DNA of 64,000 nt from Hymenobacter caeli. GTDB lineage: Bacteria; Bacteroidota; Bacteroidia; Cytophagales; Hymenobacteraceae. The notes beneath the pieces are model-generated. The model made no database searches. It saw only the letters and a list, made by a program, of their open reading frames with translations, and had not been told where the DNA came from. A program made the translations under genes and the position numbers. Below, in pieces: positions 14,434 through 56,007 of this stretch (position 1 is the stretch's first letter; every line of letters begins with the position of its first letter). The stretch covers positions 248,001 to 312,000 of the forward strand of contig NZ_JABSNP010000001.1 in the NCBI RefSeq assembly GCF_013294115.1, given 5' to 3'.

Positions 14434-15801
14434 TTAGCGGCCGGGGGCCGGGGGGGCGGTGGCGCGGCGCGGGGCCCCGGCCTGGGCCGTGAGCAGCCGC
14501 ACTTCGGCCCGGTGAAGTAATTGAGTGGTGGCTAGTTCGAGTTGGTAGCGCAGGCGCAGCAGGTGCTCGCGCCGCCGCCGGTGGTGGCGGGCAAAGCGTT
14601 GCTGCAACGCCCGGGCCCGCTGGCGCAGGCGGCGCTGCTCCTGGGCCAGGGCCCGGCGGGCGGCGCGGGGCACCTGCTGGCGGTAGCGGCCCAGGCGCTG
14701 CACCAGCTGCCGCAGCTGCTCGCGCGGGGCCTGGGCGGCCTGGCGGGTGCGCTGGTGCAGGGCGGCGCGGGCGGCGGCCAGGTGGCGCTGCCCGGCGGCC
14801 CGGCCCCGGGCGCTGAGGCGGCCCAGGTGCGCGTCGTGCCGGCGCAGGTGCTGGCCAGCGGCGGCCCGGATTTCGGTGGCCAGGTGGTGCAGCAGGCCGT
14901 CTACCCGCGCCAGGCGCTCGACCAGGAAGGCGGCCACGGCGGTGGGCGTTTTCAGGGCTCTATGGGCCGTTAAGTCGGCCAGGGCCTCGTCGCGCTCGTG
15001 GCCGATGCCGGTGAGCACGGGCAGCGGGAAGGCCCCCACGGCGGCGGCCAGGCCGTAGTCGTCGAAGGCCAGCAAATCGGTTTTGCTGCCCCCGCCCCGA
15101 ATCAGGACCACGGCCTCGAACTGCCCGCGCCGGGCCCGCACCGCGGCCAGCGCCGCCCGGATGCTGGCCGGGGCCTCGTCGCCCTGCATCGCGGCCGGGA
15201 ATAGGCTGAGGGCGAAATCATACGGCGCTTCTTCCAGCTGCCGCACAAAGTCCTGGAAGCCCGCGGCGGTGGGGGAGGAGATGACCGCCAGCCGCTGCGG
15301 GGCCAGGGGCAGGGCCAGCCGCTTCTGCCGCTCCAGCAAGCCCTTGATTTCCAGGGTTTGCAGCGCTAGCAGGCGCTGGCGGGCCAGCTCGCCCACGGTG
15401 TAGCTCGGGTCGAGGGCCAGCACGTCGAGGCTCAGGCCGTACTGCTCGTGGAAGCGCACCTGCACCCGCAGCAGCAGCCGCAGGCCCGGGCGCAGGGCCT
15501 GGCCCGTCTGCGCCTCGAAGGCGGGCACCACCTGCTGGTAGCGTTGGCTCCAGAGCGTGGCGCGGGCCTGGGCCTTGGCGGGCGCGCCGCGCTCGTCGGT
15601 GGCCTGCTCGGCCAGCGTGAGGTAGCAGTGGCCCCCGGCGAAGCGCGGCCGGGTGAGGTCGGCCACCTCGGCCACCACCCAGTACGACTCGGGGAACTGG
15701 CGGTGCAGGGCCAGGCGCACGCGGCCCAGCAGCTCGGCCAGCCCCAGCGGGGCCGGCGGCGCGGGCACGGGCAGGTCGGAACGGCGGTTGTAGAGCGGCA
15801 T
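14434..15801 (-). CDS. xseA: Exodeoxyribonuclease VII large subunit
   Basis: A 455-residue catalytic subunit of the ssDNA exonuclease. An N-terminal OB-fold (about residues 20-120, with WVVAEVADLTRP and GHCYLTLAE) binds ssDNA. The catalytic domain carries the family signature running from IRGGGS through GIGHERDEALADLTAH to KTPTAVAAF. The C-terminal third is a very Arg/Gln/Ala/Leu-rich helical region, the expected coiled-coil stalk that binds XseB subunits. It is the first gene of xseA-xseB and diverges from the M13 peptidase gene. Confidence 0.95.
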   Translation of the reverse strand: MPLYNRRSDLPVPAPPAPLGLAELLGRVRLALHRQFPESYWVVAEVADLTRPRFAGGHCYLTLAEQATDERGAPAKAQARATLWSQRYQQVVPAFEAQTGQALRPGLRLLLRVQVRFHEQYGLSLDVLALDPSYTVGELARQRLLALQTLEIKGLLERQKRLALPLAPQRLAVISSPTAAGFQDFVRQLEEAPYDFALSLFPAAMQGDEAPASIRAALAAVRARRGQFEAVVLIRGGGSKTDLLAFDDYGLAAAVGAFPLPVLTGIGHERDEALADLTAHRALKTPTAVAAFLVERLARVDGLLHHLATEIRAAAGQHLRRHDAHLGRLSARGRAAGQRHLAAARAALHQRTRQAAQAPREQLRQLVQRLGRYRQQVPRAARRALAQEQRRLRQRARALQQRFARHHRRRREHLLRLRYQLELATTQLLHRAEVRLLTAQAGAPRRATAPPAPGR

Positions 15802-15965
15802 CGGCGCAAGATACAGGCGGGGGCCCCCACGGGTTTTGGGCCCCGGGGCTCCGGCCGGCCGGGGTGCGGCTTATGTGCTTTGGGCCTTTACTTTGCGCCC
15901 ATACAATTTCGGCGCGGGCGCTGGCCGCGGCGCTTCCTTTCATTTCTCCTTTTCTGTTCGTTCTC

Positions 15966-18077
15966 ATGAAAAAATCCTCCCACCTGCCCCTGGCGGCCGT
16001 GGCCGCTGCCGCGCTGGCCCTGGCCGGCTGCGCCGGCAGCAAGCCCGCCGCCACGGCCGCCGCGCCCGCGCCGGCCACTCCCCCCGTTGCCGCTGCCCCG
16101 GCCGCCCCCGCCGTGGTGAAAGGCGTGGGCCTCGACGTGGCCGGCATGGACCCGTCGGTGAGCCCCTGCGACGACTTTTACCACTACTCGTCGGGCAACT
16201 GGATGAAGAACACGCCCATCCCGGCCGCTGAGAGCGGCTGGGGCTCGTTCAACATCCTCGCCGAGCACAACAACGCCACCCTGCGCACCATCCTCGACGA
16301 GGCGGCCCAGCAGGCCCCCACGGCCCCCAAGGGCTCGAACCTGCAAAAGGTGGGCGACTTCTACGCCGCCGCCATGGACTCGGCCGCCATCGACAAGGCC
16401 GGCCTGCGCTACCTCGCGCCCCACCTGGCCCGCATCGACGCGGTGAAAAACCTGGCCGAAATGCAGCGCCTGCTCTCCGACCCGAACACGTCGCTGGGCG
16501 GGGCCTGGTTCGATTCGGGCGTGAGCCCCGACGACAAAATCAGCTCGCAGTACGCGGTGCAGTTTTCGCAAGGCGGCCTGTCGCTGCCCAACCGCGACTA
16601 CTACCTCGACCAGGACGCCCGCTCGAAGTCCATCCGCGCCGCGTACCAGACGTACTTGGTGAACACCTTTAAGCTGCTCGGCGAGTTCGACGCCGCCGCC
16701 AAGGCCCACGCCGCCGCCGTCATGCGCATCGAAACGCGCCTGGCCAAGGCCAGCAAAAAGCCCGTGGACCTGCGCGACCCCTACGCCAACTACCACAAGC
16801 TGACGGTGGCCCAGGCCAACAAGGACTTCCCGAACCTGAACCTGCCGTTGATGCTGAAAACGGAAGGCCTGGGCACGGCCAAGGAAGTGATTGTGGGCCA
16901 GCCCGCGTTCTTCAAGGAGGTAAGCGCCATGCTGAAATCCGAGCCGCTGCTCGACCAGAAAACCTACCTGCGCTGGCACCTCACCAGCAGCCTGATGGGG
17001 GCCCTGCCCCAGGCGTTCGGCGACGAGCAGTTCCGCTACAGCCAGGTGCTGAGCGGCGCCAAGCAGCAGCAGCCCCGCTGGAAGCGCATGCTGCGCAGCA
17101 CCGACCGGGCCCTGGGCGAAGCCTTCGGCCAGATTTACGTGGAGAAGGCCTTCTCGCCCGCCGCCAAGGCCCGCGCCAAGGAGATGATTGAGAACCTGCG
17201 CACCGCCTACGCCGAGCGCATCAACGCCACGGAGTGGATGAGCGCCCCCACCAAAGTGGAGGCCATCAAGAAGCTCAACGCCTTTGCGGTGAAGATTGGC
17301 TACCCCGACAAGTGGAAGGACTACTCGGCCCTCACCATCACCCGCGCCAGCTACCTCAACGACGTGCTGGCCGCCCGCGCCTGGGCCGCCAAGGACAACC
17401 TCAAAAAGTTCGGCAAGCCGATTGACCGCACCGAGTGGGGCATGACGCCGCCCACCGTGAACGCCTACTACAACCCGGGCATGAACGAAATCGTGTTCCC
17501 GGCCGGCATTCTCCAGCCGCCCTTCTACGACCCCAAGGCCGACGACGCGGTGAACTACGGCGGCATCGGCGCCGTGATTGGCCACGAGATGACCCACGGC
17601 TTCGACGACCAGGGCCGCCAGTACGACGCCCAGGGCAACCTGAAGGATTGGTGGACCAAAGAGGACGGGGAGAAATTCACGGCCCGCGCCGCCGTGGTGG
17701 GCAAGCAGTTCGACGGCTACTCGCCGCTCGACTCGGTGCACGTGAACGGCAAGCTGACGATGGGCGAGAACCTGGCCGACCTCGGGGGCCTCACCATCGC
17801 CTACCAGGCCTTCGAGAAAACCCCGCAGGCTAAGGAGCAGGCCAAGCTCGACGGCTTCACGCCCGAGCAGCGCTTCTTTCTGAGCTGGGCCCAGGTGTGG
17901 CGCAGCAACGAGCGCCCCGAGGCCACGCGCATGGGCATCCTCACCGACCCGCACGCGCCCAACCAGTTCCGCACCATCGGGCCCCTGCAAAACATGCCCG
18001 AGTTCTACAAAGCCTTCGGCTGCCAGGACGGGGCCAAGATGATGCGCGCCCAGGCCGACCGCGCCAAGATTTGGTAA
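15966..18077 (+). CDS. M13 family zinc metallopeptidase (lipoprotein paralog)
   Basis: A 703-residue neprilysin/PepO-like endopeptidase. The start at 15966 gives a lipoprotein signal with lipobox LALAGC (Cys22) and an Ala/Pro linker; upstream extension is rejected. The N-terminal PSVSPCDDFYHYSSGNW signature, substrate motif NAYYNPGMNEIVFPAGI, zinc motif HEMTH (His540, Glu541, His544) and the second-ligand motif ENLADLGG are all present, as is the C-terminal CQDGAKM/AQADRAKIW end. It likely cleaves peptides at the cell envelope. A strongly similar paralog follows in tandem after a terminator. Confidence 0.95.
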   Translation: MKKSSHLPLAAVAAAALALAGCAGSKPAATAAAPAPATPPVAAAPAAPAVVKGVGLDVAGMDPSVSPCDDFYHYSSGNWMKNTPIPAAESGWGSFNILAEHNNATLRTILDEAAQQAPTAPKGSNLQKVGDFYAAAMDSAAIDKAGLRYLAPHLARIDAVKNLAEMQRLLSDPNTSLGGAWFDSGVSPDDKISSQYAVQFSQGGLSLPNRDYYLDQDARSKSIRAAYQTYLVNTFKLLGEFDAAAKAHAAAVMRIETRLAKASKKPVDLRDPYANYHKLTVAQANKDFPNLNLPLMLKTEGLGTAKEVIVGQPAFFKEVSAMLKSEPLLDQKTYLRWHLTSSLMGALPQAFGDEQFRYSQVLSGAKQQQPRWKRMLRSTDRALGEAFGQIYVEKAFSPAAKARAKEMIENLRTAYAERINATEWMSAPTKVEAIKKLNAFAVKIGYPDKWKDYSALTITRASYLNDVLAARAWAAKDNLKKFGKPIDRTEWGMTPPTVNAYYNPGMNEIVFPAGILQPPFYDPKADDAVNYGGIGAVIGHEMTHGFDDQGRQYDAQGNLKDWWTKEDGEKFTARAAVVGKQFDGYSPLDSVHVNGKLTMGENLADLGGLTIAYQAFEKTPQAKEQAKLDGFTPEQRFFLSWAQVWRSNERPEATRMGILTDPHAPNQFRTIGPLQNMPEFYKAFGCQDGAKMMRAQADRAKIW

Positions 18078-50152: not shown

Positions 50153-50255
50153 GAACGGAGATAAAGAGAAATAGGAATAAGAATAGAAAAAATAATTACG
50201 CCTCAATGATAGGTGTTGGTTTTGAAGCGGTTGAGAAAGTTGCCAAAAACAATGA

Positions 50256-50301
50256 GAACGTCCTGCTCGTCTGGCGTCTGCGCAGCCGAAGCATGACGTT
50301 C
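50256..50301. repeat. Short relative of palindrome family A
   Basis: GAACGTC...GACGTTC ends with the internal CTGCGCAGCCGAAGCATGAC shared with family A. It is degenerate and lies between the MBL gene and the ABC operon end. Confidence 0.6.
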
Positions 50302-50328: not shown

Positions 50329-51153
50329 TTAACTGTGCCGAATCTCATCCTTCAGGTGCTCGATTAGTTGCACGAATTCCGGCTTGGCCTGGATGCCGGG
50401 CTGCCAGGCCAGGCCCATTTCGGCCAGGTTGTACTGGTGCTTTTTGTTGACGGTAGCCCCCGGCAGGCATTGCCCGGCGGCGTCGCGCTCGGGGGCCAGC
50501 AGCCAGAGCGTGTCGGCCAGGGCGGTGGTGGTGGCCAGGTCGTGGCTCACGATGACGACCGTGTTCAATTCGTCGAGCAGCGTCACTTCCATAATAATCT
50601 TCTTCACCTCGTCAATCATCGCAATGTCGAGGCCCGAGAAGGGCTCATCGAGGATGATGAGGTGCTCGGAGCAGAGCAGCTGCTGGGCAATGGCCGCCCG
50701 CTGCCGCTGCCCGCCCGAGAGCATGGCGGGGTACTTGCGGCGGTGCGGGGCCAGGTCGAACCGGGCCAGGTAGTCCTCGGCCCGGGCCTTGGCCTCGGCG
50801 GGGGCGTGCTTGCGCTCGGCGGCCACCAGCAGGTTGTCGAGCAGGGTGCGGTGGTCGAACAGCGGGTAGCGCTGCTGCACGAAGCCCACGTCGCCGGGGC
50901 ACACGGGCCGCGCCGGGGTGCCCACCTGCACGGTGCCGGTGCTGGGCGGCAGCAGCCCCGCGATGATGCGGCACAGCACCGACTTGCCGATGCCCGAGCG
51001 TCCGTAGAAGCCCACCACCTGGCCCTGGCTCACGCCCGGCCGCACCACGTCGCGCACGTCCAGGCTGATGTCGCGCAGCACCACCTCGCCCTTGAACTGC
51101 ATCGACACGTCGCGCAGCGCGAGGATGGAATCCTTGTAAGAATGGTCCGCCAT
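50329..51153 (-). CDS. ABC transporter ATPase (nitrate/taurine type)
   Basis: A 274-residue ATPase with Walker A GRSGIGKS, Q-loop VQQRYPLF, signature LSGGQRQRAAIA, Walker B LIILDEPFSG and the H-loop VSHD, as in SsuB/TauB/NrtD-type importers. Its start overlaps the permease stop by one base (TAATG), indicating coupling. Last gene of the five-gene cluster that includes a PspA-like protein. Between motifs there is a longer than usual Val/Arg-rich insertion near residue 35. Confidence 0.93.
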   Translation of the reverse strand: MADHSYKDSILALRDVSMQFKGEVVLRDISLDVRDVVRPGVSQGQVVGFYGRSGIGKSVLCRIIAGLLPPSTGTVQVGTPARPVCPGDVGFVQQRYPLFDHRTLLDNLLVAAERKHAPAEAKARAEDYLARFDLAPHRRKYPAMLSGGQRQRAAIAQQLLCSEHLIILDEPFSGLDIAMIDEVKKIIMEVTLLDELNTVVIVSHDLATTTALADTLWLLAPERDAAGQCLPGATVNKKHQYNLAEMGLAWQPGIQAKPEFVQLIEHLKDEIRHS

Positions 51154-51932
51154 TATTTCGCCGTCGTCAAATCGGAGTAGGGGAAGAACAGACGGCGCAG
51201 AAACTCAAACGTATAGTCTTGCAGGGCCCCGGTGGCTAGGATGACGAGCTGAATGGCCACCACGCCGGCCAGGTGCAGGTAGCGGTTCTGCTTGTAAAGC
51301 AGCAGCCCGATGCCGCCTTCCGATTGGTACAGCGTCTCGACCAGCGTAATCATGGTCCAGATGATGGCGAAGTTCTGGCGCACCACCTCCAGCATCTCGT
51401 CGAGCTTGCCCAGCACGACTACCTCGTAGAAGCTGCGCCACTCGCTCATGCCCAGCGTGCGGGCGTGGTCCATTTCTTCCTGCGTGGTGGTCAGAATCAC
51501 GCTGGTCATGCCCGTCACCAGGTACACCGTGGCCCCGAACACGAGCACCGAGAGCTTCACCTGGTGCCCGTTGCTGACCATCAGGGCCATGAAAAACGTG
51601 AGGCCCGTGAGGGTGAGGTAGCGCATTTTGGAGGCCGCGTAGGCAATGGGCCGGAAGAAGGGCAGCGCCGTGAGGTAGGAGATGGCCAGCGCCAGCACCG
51701 TGGCGATGGCCAGGGCCCCGAGCGCCGTGGTCAGGCTGGCCCACAGCTCCTGAATGAGGCCCTGCGAGGTCACCAGTTCCTTAAAAGAGCCCAGCACCTC
51801 GCCCAGCGTGGGGAACAGTTGCAACGGGTAGAACAGCCACAGCAGCAGCAGCAGCAGCACCTGGCCCCCCACCATGGTGAGGAACACCGAACGGTGCGGC
51901 CTAGCGTTAGGAATAAAAAGGTCTTTGAGCAT
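51153..51932 (-). CDS. ABC transporter permease (nitrate/taurine type)
   Basis: A 259-residue permease with about six helices and a binding-protein-dependent permease EAA-loop, seen as EEMDHARTLGMSEWRSFYEVVVLGKLDEM. The start at 51932 (MLKDLFIPN) is preferred; the longer frame reads through an inverted repeat. Its start lies directly against the arm of the long inverted repeat 51934-52075, so translation may depend on opening that structure. It would pair with the downstream ATPase and with the upstream solute-binding/OmpA fusion. Confidence 0.9.
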   Translation of the reverse strand: MLKDLFIPNARPHRSVFLTMVGGQVLLLLLLWLFYPLQLFPTLGEVLGSFKELVTSQGLIQELWASLTTALGALAIATVLALAISYLTALPFFRPIAYAASKMRYLTLTGLTFFMALMVSNGHQVKLSVLVFGATVYLVTGMTSVILTTTQEEMDHARTLGMSEWRSFYEVVVLGKLDEMLEVVRQNFAIIWTMITLVETLYQSEGGIGLLLYKQNRYLHLAGVVAIQLVILATGALQDYTFEFLRRLFFPYSDLTTAK

Positions 51933-51933
51933 A

Positions 51934-52075
51934 GCGCAAGGTTTTGCGAGGTTAAAATAGGTTTCGCGGGCGGGGTTAGGTTGGATATGGGTCGGATAAT
52001 GAATCGGGCTTTGCCGCGAAGCATTACACTCCGCAAATGCCGCGAAACCTATTTTAACCCCGCGAAACCTTGCGC
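51934..52075. repeat. Long intercistronic inverted repeat abutting a start codon
   Basis: Two 36-nt arms (left 51934-51969, right 52040-52075) with two mismatches enclose about 70 nt. In the mRNA the first arm follows the stop of the solute-binding gene and the second ends two bases before the permease ATG. Confidence 0.9.
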
Positions 52076-53854
52076 TTAGCTGCCCAGCACGATTTCCACG
52101 CGGCGGTTTTTGGCTTTGCCGGCCGGGGTGGTGTTGGGGGCTACGGGTTCGGTGGCCCCGTGGGCGTACACCTGGATGCGGCCGTCGGGGAAGGCGCTGC
52201 TGCTCTTGCGCTCCAGCCACTGGCGCACGGCCATGGCGCGGTCTTCGCTCAGCTGCTGGTTGGCCTGGGGGTCGCCGGTGTTGTCGGTGTGGCCGTGCAC
52301 GGCCACTTTCAGGCTGCCGGCCACCACGAGGTCGTCAAACAGCGCGTTCAACTCTTTTTGGGCGGCGGGGGTGAAGGTGCTCTGGCCCGAATTGAACTCG
52401 ATGTTCCAAGCCCGCTCGCTCACGTTGCGGCGGATTTCGTCGCCGGCGGCAAACTTCTGCTGGTCGGCCGGGGCCACGGTTTTGCCCTTGTAGCGCGCCT
52501 GCACGTTGCGTAGCGGCGTCAGGTCCAGCATGTCGTCCAGCGGTACGTAGTTGGGCAGCTCCTTGGGGTACAGCTTGGTCTGCACGTCGCCGAAGGCCTT
52601 GTACACCGAGGCGTAGATGTTGGTGCCGCCCTCGTTGAGGCCGAATAAATTCAAGTTATCACTGAAATTGAAGGCCTTGCTGCCGCCCAGCTCCACCACG
52701 TTGCCGTTGCGGTCGGCCTCGCTCACGCCCTTGTAGTACTTCAGCCAGTAGGCCCCGTCCTTGTCTTTGTCGCCGTACACGTCGGCCGAGATGTCGGCGG
52801 CGCGGCTCAGGGCCTCGGGGTGGCTCTTCACCTGGTCGCCGGCCACGGCGTGGGCCAGGATGAGGCCCTCCACTTCCTTGGGGTGGGCGTCGTACCAGCG
52901 CTTGGTGGTCACCATGATGTTGGGCATCTGGTTCGAGTATTCCTTGGTCGAGACGATGCTCACCAGGCCGCCTTTCTGCTTGGCAATGTTCACGTCGCCG
53001 GGCGTCCAGGTGGCCACGGCGTCGGCCACCACGTCCACCTTCACGCCGGTGTTTTTGCCGTCCACGATTTTATCGCGGCTCTCGGGCTTGCCCAGGATGT
53101 ACTTCTCCGAAGCCGCCAGGAAGTCGCTGGCCGACATAAAGTTAACGGCCTGCGGGTCGTAGGTGGTCTCGTCGGGGTTCACCTTCAGGCCGTTGTCCGA
53201 GCACCACTTCAGGGCGATGTTCTGGTCGCCGTCGCGCAGGTAGCAGGCGATGGTTTTGCCCAGCGCCGCCTTGGGGTTGTCAATCCATTCCTTGGGGCCC
53301 ATCACTTTGTCTTCGCCGAAGGATTTGCCGGGGCTGTAGGGGATGATTTGCAGCTGCGTGCCGGCCTTTTTCAATTCGGCCTGCACGGCCGAGAAGCCCG
53401 GCAGGCCGTCGCCCATGATGCTCACAATCAGGCCCGGCGTGGCGGGATTGGCCGAGAGGTCGGCGGCGTTTTTTACCAGGTCGGCCTGCATCTTGCTCAC
53501 GTCGTCCTGGCGCACAATCTGCATGTTGAGGCCGTTGGCGGCCATCGCCGAGCCGGTGGTGGTGCGGGGGCCCCCGTTGGCCAGCATGCCGGCAATCTGG
53601 GCGTTCCAGGCCATTACCTCCCAGGTCACGGGCGTGCCCTTGTCGGCCGGGGCCGTGCCGGGCAGCGGGGCCAGCGGCACCACCGTGTTCACGCCGCTGC
53701 CGCCGGTGGCGGCCGGCAGCTCAATCGAGCTGAGCAGCACCGACTCGGTCGCAGCTTTTTTGAAAAGCAGGTTGCTGGAAGTGAGTTTGTTGATGCCAAA
53801 ATACAGGCCCGCCAGGACCAGAATGGCAATGAGGATTTTACCGCGGGTAGTCAT
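52076..53854 (-). CDS. Membrane-anchored solute-binding protein fused to an OmpA domain
   Basis: A 592-residue protein with three parts: an uncleaved N-terminal membrane helix (about residues 7-24), a two-lobed ABC solute-binding region similar to phosphate/taurine-type binding proteins (about 75-430), and a C-terminal OmpA-like peptidoglycan-binding domain (about 465-592). The last is recognised by VAVHGHTDNTGD, NQQLSEDRAMAVRQWL and KNRRVEIVL. The protein would sit in the inner membrane facing the periplasm, and hold the cell wall. Permease and ATPase follow in the operon and a PspA-like gene precedes it. No equivalent function is known to me. Confidence 0.9.
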   Translation of the reverse strand: MTTRGKILIAILVLAGLYFGINKLTSSNLLFKKAATESVLLSSIELPAATGGSGVNTVVPLAPLPGTAPADKGTPVTWEVMAWNAQIAGMLANGGPRTTTGSAMAANGLNMQIVRQDDVSKMQADLVKNAADLSANPATPGLIVSIMGDGLPGFSAVQAELKKAGTQLQIIPYSPGKSFGEDKVMGPKEWIDNPKAALGKTIACYLRDGDQNIALKWCSDNGLKVNPDETTYDPQAVNFMSASDFLAASEKYILGKPESRDKIVDGKNTGVKVDVVADAVATWTPGDVNIAKQKGGLVSIVSTKEYSNQMPNIMVTTKRWYDAHPKEVEGLILAHAVAGDQVKSHPEALSRAADISADVYGDKDKDGAYWLKYYKGVSEADRNGNVVELGGSKAFNFSDNLNLFGLNEGGTNIYASVYKAFGDVQTKLYPKELPNYVPLDDMLDLTPLRNVQARYKGKTVAPADQQKFAAGDEIRRNVSERAWNIEFNSGQSTFTPAAQKELNALFDDLVVAGSLKVAVHGHTDNTGDPQANQQLSEDRAMAVRQWLERKSSSAFPDGRIQVYAHGATEPVAPNTTPAGKAKNRRVEIVLGS

Positions 53855-53923
53855 TCAATTGATGTGAAAAGGTGTTGAATGTGGAAAGGAGGTGAAAACG
53901 GGTCGTATCAGAGTAAAGAGGCC

Positions 53924-53964
53924 GTCATGCTCATCTGGCGTCCGCGCAGCCAGATGAGCATGAC
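53924..53964. repeat. Short palindrome related to family A
   Basis: Perfect 15-bp arms (GTCATGCTCATCTGG) with an 11-nt loop. It lies inside the operon between the PspA-like gene and the solute-binding gene and resembles 50256-50301. Confidence 0.75.
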
Positions 53965-53994
53965 GTTCTAAACGTTCGTTCCGGGTACTGCAAT

Positions 53995-54990
53995 TCAGTC
54001 CAGCAGCTTGCCGTAGGCATCGTCCGAAGCCTTGGCGGTGGCGGCCACGCCCAGGCGCACCGGCGGCTCGTTGTCCATAATGGCGTTGAACTCGCCCTTC
54101 TGGTACTTGTCGAGCAGGCGCTGGCCCTTTTCGCTCATCACCCCGTTCTGGATGTCCATCTCCTTGACGAACTCCTGCGAGTAGCGCATGGCCTGCTTGA
54201 TTTGGCCCAGCTGCTGGGCCATGTCCTGGGCCACGCGGTCGGTGGCCAGGTCGAAGAAGTACTTCTTGTCGGGGTCGCCGCGCAGAATGTTCATCGCCGC
54301 CCGCATCCCGGACGAGGTGCGCTTCACCAGCGCGTACTCATCCTTCAAGAGGTTGACCTTGAACTTGGAGTTGTCAATCTGGCGCAGGGCGGCCTTGAGG
54401 ATCTGGCGCATCACCAGGCTCACGTTGGCCGTGGTGGTGGCCATCGGGGTGAGGCGGCGGTTGTAGTCTTCGAGCTGGGCGGCGCGGCTGGCGTAGCTGT
54501 CGGCGCTGTCCTTTTCGCCCTGGCGCAGGGCCGCGTCGGCCAGGGCCAGGTACTCCTGCATCTGGCTGCGGTTGGCGTCCAGCTTGCGCTGCACCAGCTC
54601 GTGGGCCCCCTCGATGTGGCCCACTTCCTCGTCCATCTTGCGGGCCTCCTTCTCGGTGTTCGAGATGTAGTCCTCCATGATGCCGATGGGGTCGGTGTTG
54701 ACGAACAGCCCCGCCGCGGTGCGGAAGATGCGCTGCCCGGCGTACCAGAGCCCGGCCTGGATGCGCTTGTTGGTGGCCAGCAGAAACAGCACGAACAGGG
54801 CCCCCAGACTCGCGCCGAGCTTGACCGTGTTGAAAACAATATCAACCAGGTAAGGCAAAATCTGCCCCCAATAGTACACCCCCAGGCCGGCCAGCAGGGC
54901 CACAAAGGCCCAGGCGGCCACTTTCTCGGGTTTTTGCCAGGACGGCAGGCCATCCGCGGGCGAAGGCGGGCCCAGTAAAGGTGTGTTCAT
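53995..54990 (-). CDS. Membrane-anchored PspA-like protein
   Basis: A 331-residue protein. Two transmembrane helices (about residues 25-42 and 57-73) precede a long helical region starting DPIGIMEDYISNTEKEAR (about 100), in the same manner as the start of PspA/IM30 (DPxxxxxxxxxE). The helix run includes ALRQGEKDSADSYASRAAQLEDYNRRL, similar in placement to the PspA loop segment, and ends near residue 250. Normal PspA has no transmembrane helices. It probably binds or stabilises the membrane under stress. It is the second gene of the cluster. Confidence 0.75.
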   Translation of the reverse strand: MNTPLLGPPSPADGLPSWQKPEKVAAWAFVALLAGLGVYYWGQILPYLVDIVFNTVKLGASLGALFVLFLLATNKRIQAGLWYAGQRIFRTAAGLFVNTDPIGIMEDYISNTEKEARKMDEEVGHIEGAHELVQRKLDANRSQMQEYLALADAALRQGEKDSADSYASRAAQLEDYNRRLTPMATTTANVSLVMRQILKAALRQIDNSKFKVNLLKDEYALVKRTSSGMRAAMNILRGDPDKKYFFDLATDRVAQDMAQQLGQIKQAMRYSQEFVKEMDIQNGVMSEKGQRLLDKYQKGEFNAIMDNEPPVRLGVAATAKASDDAYGKLLD

Positions 54991-55028
54991 CGTGCAGAAA
55001 GAAAGGATTGGGGTGGCGCTTACGCTGC

Positions 55029-55721
55029 TTACTTGGCCGCGCCGCTGGCGTTCAAAAAGGCTTCGGCGGCTTTGTGGTGGGCTTGCAGCTCGGCCAGCGC
55101 GGCCGAGTTGGCCAGCTCGTAGCTGGCCAGTGCCGCCTGGGTTTTCTGGCGCTCATCGGCCAGCTGCTGCTGGGTCTGGAGCAATTGCTGCTGCTTGGCC
55201 TGGAGCTGGCGGGTGAGGTCGGCGAGGTCGGCGGCGAGCTTTTTTTCCTGGGCCGCGAGCTGCACCACGGGGCCGGGGGCCGCGCCGGGCGCGGCGGTTT
55301 CGCCCATTTTCTCGCGGTGGCGGGCCAGCACCTTGTCGCGGTCGGTGGCCAGGGCCTGCTCAAACTGCGCGGCCGAGGCCAGCAGGCCGGGCACGGTGCC
55401 GCCGTTCACGGCCGAAAAGGCGTTGTAGGCGGTCTGGTACAGCAGGGGGCCCGCCATGCCGGCGGCGGCCATGCTCTTCACCATCTTCATGTACGCCTCG
55501 AAGTCGCGGCCATCGCCAGCCAGCAGGCCCGCGATGTGGTCGAGGTGGCGCTGCTCGGGCTGCGTGACGGCCGGGGCCGCAAACGGCACGGCGGCTCCGG
55601 GCAGTCCCGGCGCGGGCGCGGTGTACGGGGCCCCGGCCGGGGCAGCGGGAGCGTTTTCCCCTTCCTCGGGCTCAATGAAAAAATCCTTGGCGGCGTGGGT
55701 GAGCTTATCGAAGAGGGCCAT
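55029..55721 (-). CDS. Coiled-coil protein of unknown function (first gene of PspA/ABC cluster)
   Basis: A 230-residue soluble protein. It begins MALFDKLTHAAKDFFIEP, continues with a Pro/Ala-rich segment (about 22-52), a helical domain (about 57-135) and a long coiled coil (about 155-225, e.g. QAKQQQLLQTQQQLADERQK). No named family was recognised. It starts the operon: a TACCTTTG box lies 91 nt upstream and the PspA-like gene follows 38 nt after its stop. A partner or scaffold role for the PspA-like protein is only an inference. Confidence 0.75.
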   Translation of the reverse strand: MALFDKLTHAAKDFFIEPEEGENAPAAPAGAPYTAPAPGLPGAAVPFAAPAVTQPEQRHLDHIAGLLAGDGRDFEAYMKMVKSMAAAGMAGPLLYQTAYNAFSAVNGGTVPGLLASAAQFEQALATDRDKVLARHREKMGETAAPGAAPGPVVQLAAQEKKLAADLADLTRQLQAKQQQLLQTQQQLADERQKTQAALASYELANSAALAELQAHHKAAEAFLNASGAAK

Positions 55722-55811: not shown

Positions 55812-55819
55812 CAAAGGTA
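55812..55819 (-). promoter_or_regulatory. Putative -7 box for the PspA/ABC operon
   Basis: On the minus strand this is TACCTTTG, matching TAnnTTTG, 91 nt before the start of the coiled-coil gene. No strict TTG partner is seen 19-21 nt upstream. A palindrome (55850-55902) lies just upstream. Confidence 0.5.
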
Positions 55820-55849
55820 AAGATATCCGGCAATCTGAATGCCTGCGAT

Positions 55850-55902
55850 TACCGCGGTTTTCGGCCCGGCCCGCGCCGGGTCCCGGGCCGAAAACCGCGG
55901 TA
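55850..55902. promoter_or_regulatory. Perfect palindrome upstream of the PspA/ABC operon
   Basis: Two 20-nt arms (TACCGCGGTTTTCGGCCCGG and its complement) flank a 13-nt loop. It lies about 30 nt upstream of the -7 box and about 100 nt after the M61 stop. It has no T-tract, so an operator or structural role is as likely as termination. Confidence 0.6.
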
Positions 55903-56007
55903 AGTTGACAGTTACCGATTGGTCGTTGGCGGTGAGCTGATAAACAATTGACTGCCAGACGTCAATGGGAAGTCAATGACCGGCGGCCCCGGCGCGACAA
56001 CCTACTC

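Follow-up and report, generated by a model that had tools for sequence, protein, structure and literature searches.

The account closest to the locus studied here is PMC11237479, which we take to be Ravi et al. 2024. Section 18 of that paper describes operons that combine a transmembrane-bearing PspA/Snf7 protein with an ABC ATPase, a permease, a PBPB-OmpA protein and an AAA+ ATPase (e.g., OGG56892.1), and the portion on which we draw calls the action of PspA-family proteins without an AAA+ remodeller unknown. A PspA-like gene is also on record in huge phages, as the preprint PMC12363816 places one next to terD in Jug phages; the resemblance to our locus lies in that gene, as the main text of the preprint does not use the words "transporter", "OmpA" or "permease".

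The window, a 64,000-nucleotide stretch of a Hymenobacter caeli contig, contains a five-gene cassette that shares with the operons of PMC11237479, going by their description in that section rather than by OGG56892.1 itself, a transmembrane-bearing PspA-type protein, an ABC ATPase, a permease and a protein that joins solute-binding and peptidoglycan-binding parts. It differs from them in that no AAA+ gene lies beside it and in that it starts with a coiled-coil gene. The initial annotation knew of no description of these genes as one system; that claim fails, since the bacterial operon type, AAA+ gene included, is described in PMC11237479, and the cassette is not new as a kind. Its carriage by phages is absent from the operon description in that source, and our literature search found no earlier report of a phage-borne cassette; this carriage is the new result.

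Organization of the locus

The genes all share the minus strand, in line with the initial annotation; they and the upstream elements are as follows.

55029..55721, minus strand: gene 1, the cassette's first gene, a soluble coiled-coil protein of 230 residues with no predicted transmembrane segment
53995..54990, minus strand: gene 2, a PspA/Vipp1-related protein of 331 residues with two N-terminal hydrophobic helices (Pfam, profile, fold and hydropathy)
52076..53854, minus strand: gene 3, an anchor, a TauA/SsuA-fold domain and an OmpA domain (Pfam, structure model and fold search)
51153..51932, minus strand: gene 4, an ABC permease of CmpB/NrtB/SsuC type, 259 residues (profile match)
50329..51153, minus strand: gene 5, an ABC ATPase of 274 residues (Pfam and motifs)
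55812..55819, minus strand: Bacteroidota -7-like element TACCTTTG, about 90 bases ahead of gene 1
55849..55903, no strand: perfect 21-bp inverted repeat with a 13-base loop, found by eye between an M61 peptidase gene and gene 1

The intergenic distances from gene 1 to gene 5 are 38, 140, 143 and -1 bases, the last being the one-base overlap of permease and ATPase already noted in the initial annotation (the start of gene 4 is an ATG chosen within a longer listed ORF). That annotation also saw a common-looking promoter. A search for TAnnTTTG, the Bacteroidota -7 consensus, returned one element upstream of the cassette and none in either of the two long spacers within it; the element lacks a -33 partner at the customary distance, and the pattern hints only weakly at a common promoter for the five genes. 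Against a single transcriptional unit, the two long spacers, at about 140 bases each, could accommodate separate transcripts, and the PspA-like gene may have one of its own. The hairpin at 55849-55903 separates the cassette from the upstream peptidase gene and is a possible terminator.

The coiled-coil and PspA-like proteins

PDB matches to the gene 1 protein were generic coiled coils only. The gene 2 protein had been called PspA-like with two membrane helices, and both points held: PspA_IM30 matched at 7.7e-9 (35.9 bits, above the curated cut-off of 33.9), and hydropathy showed two peaks, one of 1.59 starting at residue 24 and one of 1.86 starting at residue 55. Only 13 of 47 PspA-like relatives matched PspA_IM30 at an E-value of 0.01. 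A family profile of 47 rows searched against the PDB found Vipp1 (2.7e-8), whereas an 8-row profile retrieved neither PspA nor Vipp1. The AlphaFold2 model of the protein had a mean pLDDT of 72.3 and a pTM of 0.45; residues 111-210 reached a pLDDT of about 90 or more, and the model was weak in the C-terminal part, past about residue 230. In a Foldseek search with this model ranks 1-15 were all Vipp1 or PspA (best E-value 1.5e-4; query TM-score about 0.4).

By model and profile, the gene 2 protein is predicted to be a PspA/Vipp1 alpha hairpin behind two hydrophobic helices. The long hairpin is what it has in common with PspA and Vipp1, the bacterial ESCRT-III proteins. Canonical PspA is a peripheral protein with an N-terminal amphipathic helix; since the two predicted hydrophobic stretches take the place of that helix, we regard gene 2 as a PspA relative and not a canonical PspA.

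A binding protein fused to an OmpA domain

Gene 3 had been described as a membrane-anchored binding protein fused to OmpA, and this is borne out by an N-terminal hydrophobic anchor, a binding domain at about residues 71-455 and an OmpA domain at about residues 480-592 (1.6e-19 by Pfam). The binding part was firm only by fold, as its NMT1 match (0.046) lay under the Pfam cut-off, and a fold search was needed since PDB sequence searches missed it: searching with the binding part alone gave no match, and among the 60 matches listed for gene 3 only the OmpA half was matched. The structure model had a pLDDT of 88.5. By fold the binding part matched TauA (6ssy_B; Z 24.4, rmsd 3.2, 289 aligned), with SsuA at a Z of about 21, CmpA at 19 and NrtA at 18, in agreement with the oxyanion or organosulfur class first proposed. 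The top two rows of the Foldseek list for gene 3 were an MBP-TssL fusion, 6aeo, and the OmpA part matched TagL with a Z of 17.4.

The conserved aspartate and arginine of OmpA domains bind diaminopimelate. Both residues (D524 and R539) were present in 46 of 46 sequences, and the OmpA domain of gene 3 is predicted to bind peptidoglycan; it resembles OmpA, Pal and TagL domains in fold and in these two residues and differs from them in being fused to a binding protein. A lipobox pattern was found in none of 134 binding proteins. In the binding part nine acidic, one basic and six aromatic residues were at least 90% conserved across the 46 sequences, which came from phage records and bacteria; because these are mostly acidic or aromatic, our guess is that the ligand may be a cationic or metal-linked small molecule.

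The permease and ATPase

Searched alone, the gene 4 permease matched BPD_transp_1 at 0.0082, under the Pfam cut-off, and a profile built with its relatives matched CmpB (2.4e-11) and NrtB (2.1e-7). The gene 5 protein matched ABC_tran (1.7e-25) and carries Walker A, signature, Walker B and H-loop motifs; the best model for it was a sulfate-type ATPase, which scored below cut-off like every other model listed. All four motif expressions were matched in 112 of 124 ATPases. Eleven of the remaining 12 were letter variants in which the lysine, glycines or histidine of the motif persists; in the twelfth (L138) Walker A was not found. Judged by these profiles and motifs, permease and ATPase belong to the TauT/NitT importer class. 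The cassette is like TauABC, SsuABC, CmpABCD and NrtABCD in binding-protein fold, permease profile and ATPase type, and differs from them in that its binding protein is predicted to be tethered to membrane and wall.

A predicted envelope-spanning machine

On balance we lean towards reading the five genes as one envelope-spanning machine, in which a wall-tethered TauT/NitT-type importer is coupled to a membrane-anchored ESCRT-III-like scaffold, the whole moving as a unit and feeding phage infection. The N-terminal helix of gene 3 would grip the inner membrane and its OmpA domain the cell wall, and this double anchoring would fix the TauA-type binding domain beside its own permease and ATPase, through which genes 4 and 5 would import a small ligand. 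Gene 2, a putative membrane-anchored PspA/ESCRT-III relative, and gene 1, its presumed coiled-coil partner, would form a coat on the cytoplasmic face of that membrane patch or shape it, perhaps as a rod or ring polymer, and keep the membrane intact around the transporter. The cassette would travel as a unit, being chromosomal in some Bacteroidota and whole in many huge phages, where it would maintain the envelope of the infected cell and supply a long infection.

The joining of an N-terminal anchor and an OmpA domain (with D524 and R539 invariant) on one protein could also mean that ATP hydrolysis strains the membrane against the peptidoglycan. We consider such a tether or force generator, which the initial annotation had raised, highly unlikely and found no support for it: the permease is of importer type; its conservation, that of the ATPase motifs and that of the binding domain's pocket-side residues follow the pattern of an importer; and one phage cassette (L132) has a second, NMT1-type binding protein after the ATPase, with relatives in five other viral loci.

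Conservation and neighbours in bacteria

Conservation of gene order had been proposed as a check on the cassette, and the order was kept: the full five-gene set was found in order at 64 of 87 bacterial loci, the other 23 had fewer genes and none was out of order, which is far beyond chance. These 87 exclude the window and L004 and include one or more duplicate records (L015 and L054 have contigs of equal length). As the profiles behind the counts drew partly on the same loci, they show presence and order rather than independent homology, and with the genome scan limited to the best 80 of 249 relatives, distant bacterial carriers are under-sampled. Two loci that had seemed out of order (L049 and L035) are explained by ORF choice or a contig end, the profiles showing no such case, and at L127 the order holds despite other ORFs in between. 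Searches of plasmids gave no match to the SBP-OmpA protein or the permease. Evolutionary distances correlate between the five families, with Spearman values of 0.58-0.82 for non-Hymenobacter pairs.

The genome has a second copy in which genes 2 and 3 are kept, gene 1 and the permease have no match and the ATPase is down to 48 residues; because of this copy genes 2 and 3 may function without transport or with the transporter of the other copy. Ten Hymenobacter loci have the PspA-like and SBP-OmpA genes and lack gene 1, though the upstream DNA is covered. That the PspA pair and the transporter are two independent modules that are merely adjacent would agree with the loss of part of the set in the second copy and with the long spacers in the window, but scarcely seems credible given the identical order in bacteria and phage records and the correlated distances.

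The intactness of only the PspA-like and SBP-OmpA genes in the reduced copy would also suit a sensor, in which the binding protein detects a ligand in the periplasm, or strain on the wall, and the ABC unit passes the signal to the PspA-like scaffold, which would then alter the state of the membrane, net import being minor. A sigma-54-type response regulator adjoins the cassette in 51 of 80 genome-scan loci, accompanied in 37 of these by a same-strand histidine kinase, which fits such signalling; the window cassette has no adjoining pair of this kind, however, and ATPase motifs are retained in nearly all loci. The classical Psp response is under PspF/sigma-54 control; no regulator was seen beside the window cassette, and a scan for a sigma-54 promoter (-24/-12) in the DNA ahead of the cassette at 48 loci of clade II and 11 of clade I gave none that was convincing, with L086 alone reaching a shuffle p of 0.01 and nothing repeating between loci. 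We regard the sensor as unlikely and the importer as the better account.

An AAA+ gene lies near the cassette in all three loci of another family, f7 (L018 and L019 by Pfam, L020 by gene start only), a feature these relatives share with the operons as PMC11237479 describes them. In four genomes of the genus the AAA+ partner had no orthologue, and partial matches of about 30% occurred in all four; neither the 51 viral loci of the first scan nor LR756500 had one flagged, going by the best match per ORF and the DNA examined. TelA, considered as a partner, had no match in the 2 genomes tried. The cassette offers a compact five-gene model for PspA-family action without an AAA+ remodeller.

Phage-borne copies

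Two IMG/VR scans, the first giving 51 loci and the second 93 relatives of which 80 were kept, together covered 81 records by contig name, some of them near-duplicates. One 51.5-kb record (L119/L188) had no terminase match and 76-82% identity to the window proteins; it is probably a piece of Hymenobacter chromosome and was dropped, leaving 80. The ordered five-gene cassette was present in 71 of these 80 records with the binding protein, the others being partial, and 26 of the 71 are at least 200 kb long; a 462-kb phage record, LR756500, carries it as well. Among the second-scan viral loci 70 of 77 had all five genes in order and none was out of order, six of the seven partial loci stopping at the end of the record.

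Terminase was found in 23 of the 35 IMG/VR records that reach 150 kb, as well as in LR756500; over all lengths the first scan gave it in 21 of 50 records, and a second test that included LR756500 gave it in 9 of 16. Around the terminase in six records, 45 proteins included portal, UvsX, helicase, tail tube and SSB families, and two terminase-negative records showed tail sheath or virion proteins; the tail sheath family PF04984 does little here as a marker of phages, since three of three bacterial controls also matched it. Ribosomal L2 was matched in none of the 28 viral records tested (out of 50) and in four of four bacterial genomes. By these markers the carrier contigs appear to be phages, nine of the 35 large records having no terminase, sheath or other structural match.

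The ordered cassette in huge phages suggests that some two dozen giant bacterial viruses carry their own envelope machine into the cell. Were our reading true, phages would bring a whole transporter and membrane scaffold and not merely isolated auxiliary genes, and infection would involve bacterial relatives of ESCRT-III. Carriage by many huge phages would equally suit a weapon or shield that blocks superinfection or counters a host envelope defence, with bacterial copies kept for the same use, and PMC7162821, in the part relevant here, suggests that membrane-predicted proteins of huge phages may affect susceptibility to other phages. We think this use improbable, though nothing specific speaks against it; the flanks of the cassette are conserved in Hymenobacter and look like ordinary vertical inheritance.

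Proposed exchange between bacteria and phages

A tree of 64 rows was built with 24 chosen bacterial rows and with 11 near-duplicate or partial viral loci excluded by hand; "phage" on it denotes an IMG/VR record or LR756500, not each of them a proven phage. The label changed four times between bacteria and phage, and at least three changes were forced by starred branches. Exchange of the cassette between Bacteroidota and huge phages is the best reading of this tree, which is unrooted and therefore leaves the direction of transfer undecided. Only tentatively, and with rather less than even confidence, we suggest that huge phages carry a complete import machine reaching from membrane to cell wall, with an ESCRT-III-type scaffold of its own, by which they remodel and stabilise the infected cell and keep it fed, and that Bacteroidota such as Hymenobacter acquired the cassette from phages and domesticated it, perhaps more than once.

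Conservation of the cassette and its lineages in Hymenobacter

The initial annotation had placed five genes on one strand, and its positions agreed with ours, all five genes being on the minus strand.

Window 50329-55721, minus strand: cassette of coiled-coil (gene 1), PspA-like (gene 2), binding protein-OmpA fusion (SBP-OmpA, gene 3), permease (gene 4) and ATPase (gene 5) genes
G000:C17:88000-102000, another contig of the window's genome: L004, a second, reduced cassette

The window cassette is flanked upstream by an M61 peptidase gene and downstream by a gene for a beta-lactamase-fold hydrolase, and no phage gene was seen among its neighboring genes. The annotation had proposed a check of gene-order conservation in relatives, and such conservation was borne out: in a count made by profile, with the window and L004 set aside, all five genes stood in order at 64 of 87 bacterial loci and fewer were found at 23, with none misordered. 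The cassette is a real, conserved system.

Hymenobacter has two paralogous cassette lineages, which occur together in H. negativus, H. rubidus and H. terricola, among others. The first is window-like, with an M61 or hydrolase flank; in our genome scan an M61 and/or hydrolase flank was common to 13 loci (11 and 11) of the best 80 of 249 relatives. In the second (clade II; e.g., loci L030-L034, L043 and L060) a sigma-54-type response regulator adjoins the cassette, as it does at 51 of the best 80 of 249 loci, following the cassette at 46 and preceding it at 5; a same-strand histidine kinase accompanies the regulator at 37 of these 51. A search for a sigma-54 promoter at clade II loci with this regulator found none. 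L004 groups with the second lineage on the binding-domain tree, and a sigma-54-type response regulator and histidine kinase follow it. Genes 2 and 3 are kept intact (84% and 83% identical to the window's), a gene 1 match and a permease match are both absent, and the ATPase is reduced to 48 residues, followed by a 380-aa ORF. By eye, the other flank of L004 holds urease-type genes. Within the window, the spacers at 53920-53970 and 50255-50300 contain REP-like palindromes (CGTCATGCT...AGCATGACG), the half-sites of which recur many times across the window with one mismatch allowed.

Distribution in bacteria and relation to a described operon

Within the phylum the distribution is patchy: a binding-domain query gave matches in 8 of 395 sampled genomes (8/371 good genomes; 3/170 genera), and a profile search of the sampled genomes returned the same eight. 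In Hymenobacter it is common. Scanning 84,980 species genomes yielded 249 relatives; of the best 80, 77 belonged to Hymenobacteraceae and the other three were MAGs under the names Chlorobiota, Bacteroidetes and Flavobacterium. The MAG named Chlorobiota had the cassette and ribosomal protein L2 on one contig, and this copy is therefore chromosomal; the MAG seems to be grouped with Bacteroidota in the taxonomy used, because its phylum's sample contains two genomes with coordinates equal to those of genomes G072 and G084.

A bacterial operon with an AAA+ gene has been described, for which a link between membrane remodelling and solute transport was proposed, with OmpA contacting peptidoglycan (PMC11237479); that paper also mentions a coiled-coil protein gene as the third beside PspA and Snf7 in Bacteroidetes. 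In genus g14 of family f7, which we took for flavobacteria, the cassette genes are almost contiguous and an AAA+ gene lies 3' of the ATPase gene. By Pfam it follows the ATPase gene immediately at loci L018 and L019; at L020 one extra ORF intervenes, the AAA+ call there being from the protein start only. The bacterial form is a variant of the described operon type (PMC11237479). How the cassette works we infer with slightly better than even confidence.

Carriage by huge phages

What is new is the wide carriage of the cassette by huge phages. In IMG/VR, a first scan gave 51 records with the cassette binding protein; a wider second scan matched 93, and 80 of these were kept. Among the 77 loci newly fetched in the second scan, 70 had all five genes in order, and the other seven had two to four genes, correctly ordered, with six of these loci lying where the record ends. 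Combining both scans, minus one Hymenobacter-like record, 71 of 80 records had all five genes; cassette-carrying IMG/VR records of at least 200 kb numbered 26. The record set aside (IMGVR_UViG_2627853892_000001; L119/L188) resembles a piece of Hymenobacter chromosome, not a virus. At L127 (a 312,694-bp record of 22% GC) the order is kept despite many unrelated interspersed ORFs.

In three SBP-OmpA searches of 50,697 INPHARED records, only LR756500 ("uncultured phage", 462,018 bp) was matched across 80% or more of the query. It encodes, in order, the coiled coil, PspA-like protein, SBP-OmpA, a 91-aa ORF, permease and ATPase. We take LR756500 to be a member of the huge-phage set of PMC7162821. 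A 321-aa ORF near its cassette (15436-16401) may be transposon-related, judging from its first residues only.

Several tests addressed whether the carrier records are phages. Searches for a PF03237 terminase were positive for 15/20 first-scan and 8/15 new records of at least 150 kb, plus LR756500, and regardless of length for 21/50 and 9/16, respectively. Ribosomal protein L2 was found in none of 28 viral records examined versus all of four bacterial genomes. In six records we examined the 20 kb round the terminase via 45 large proteins: terminase family matches numbered six in each count, and portal, UvsX, helicase, thymidylate synthase, tail tube and SSB families accounted for two or three proteins each. 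Two records lacking a terminase match had tail sheath and tail proteins (L121) or virion structural proteins (L148). Nine of 35 large records (at least 150 kb) gave no phage marker in the terminase and structural-protein tests.

Among the titles, abstract openings and passages listed by searches of the open-licence PMC literature, we found no report of a phage-borne cassette. PMC7162821 refers to phage proteins with a predicted membrane location, and its main text contains neither "transporter", "OmpA" or "PspA" nor the accession LR756500; "OmpA" is likewise absent from the main text of PMC9239133. A preprint (PMC12363816) mentions a pspA-like gene adjoining terD, and the passages of PMC7416419 and PMC13212656 had no bearing on the cassette.

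A quick, unrooted tree built from binding domains (24 of bacterial origin and 40 from viral records, 64 in all; some branches long) needed four changes between bacterial and viral labels, of which well-supported branches force three or more. Hymenobacter formed a single clade (100), next to a mixed clade of eight viral and four bacterial rows (joining branch 93, not starred), and the three f7 copies formed a separate clade with 14 viral rows (100). The tree supports repeated exchange of the cassette and favors neither direction.

Predicted proteins and additional viral genes

A 47-row profile of gene 2 against the PDB had Vipp1 as its top match (2.7e-8, hairpin region), and Foldseek ranks 1-15 were all Vipp1 or PspA (best E-value 1.5e-4), with CHMP1B/IST1 further down; model confidence was high only at about residues 111-210, and two hydrophobic stretches lie N-terminal to the hairpin. 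In the gene 3 model (pLDDT 88.5) the binding domain was closest to TauA (Z 24.4), followed by an S. aureus binding protein, SsuA, CmpA, Thi5, NrtA and PqqT, and the OmpA domain was closest to TagL. Across 46 sequences, positions with 90% conservation or more included W83, R115, D117, G148, E181, D182, D208, D210, W283 and D287; judged from the DSSP line, many would lie shortly after a strand and ahead of a helix, the region in which proteins of this kind bind their ligands. Gene 4 matched CmpB and NrtB and keeps a coupling-loop-like block. Four motif expressions were matched by 112 of 124 ATPases (gene 5), the remainder being 11 letter variants and L138, in which no Walker A was seen.

Some viral cassettes have extra genes. 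In 16 first-scan records, several of them near-duplicates (L141, L148, L155, L165 and others), an extra protein, 142-167 aa long in the 14 records listed, is encoded between the SBP-OmpA and permease genes. By eye it looks secreted and barrel-like; one member weakly matched an outer-membrane barrel family (0.0047, below cut-off), and three other members gave no such match. An additional family lies 3' of the ATPase in six viral loci. Its sole member scanned (L132:14268-15338) is an NMT1-type binding protein (1.2e-18), with relatives in the five other viral loci, and this second binding protein fits a transport role for the cassette.
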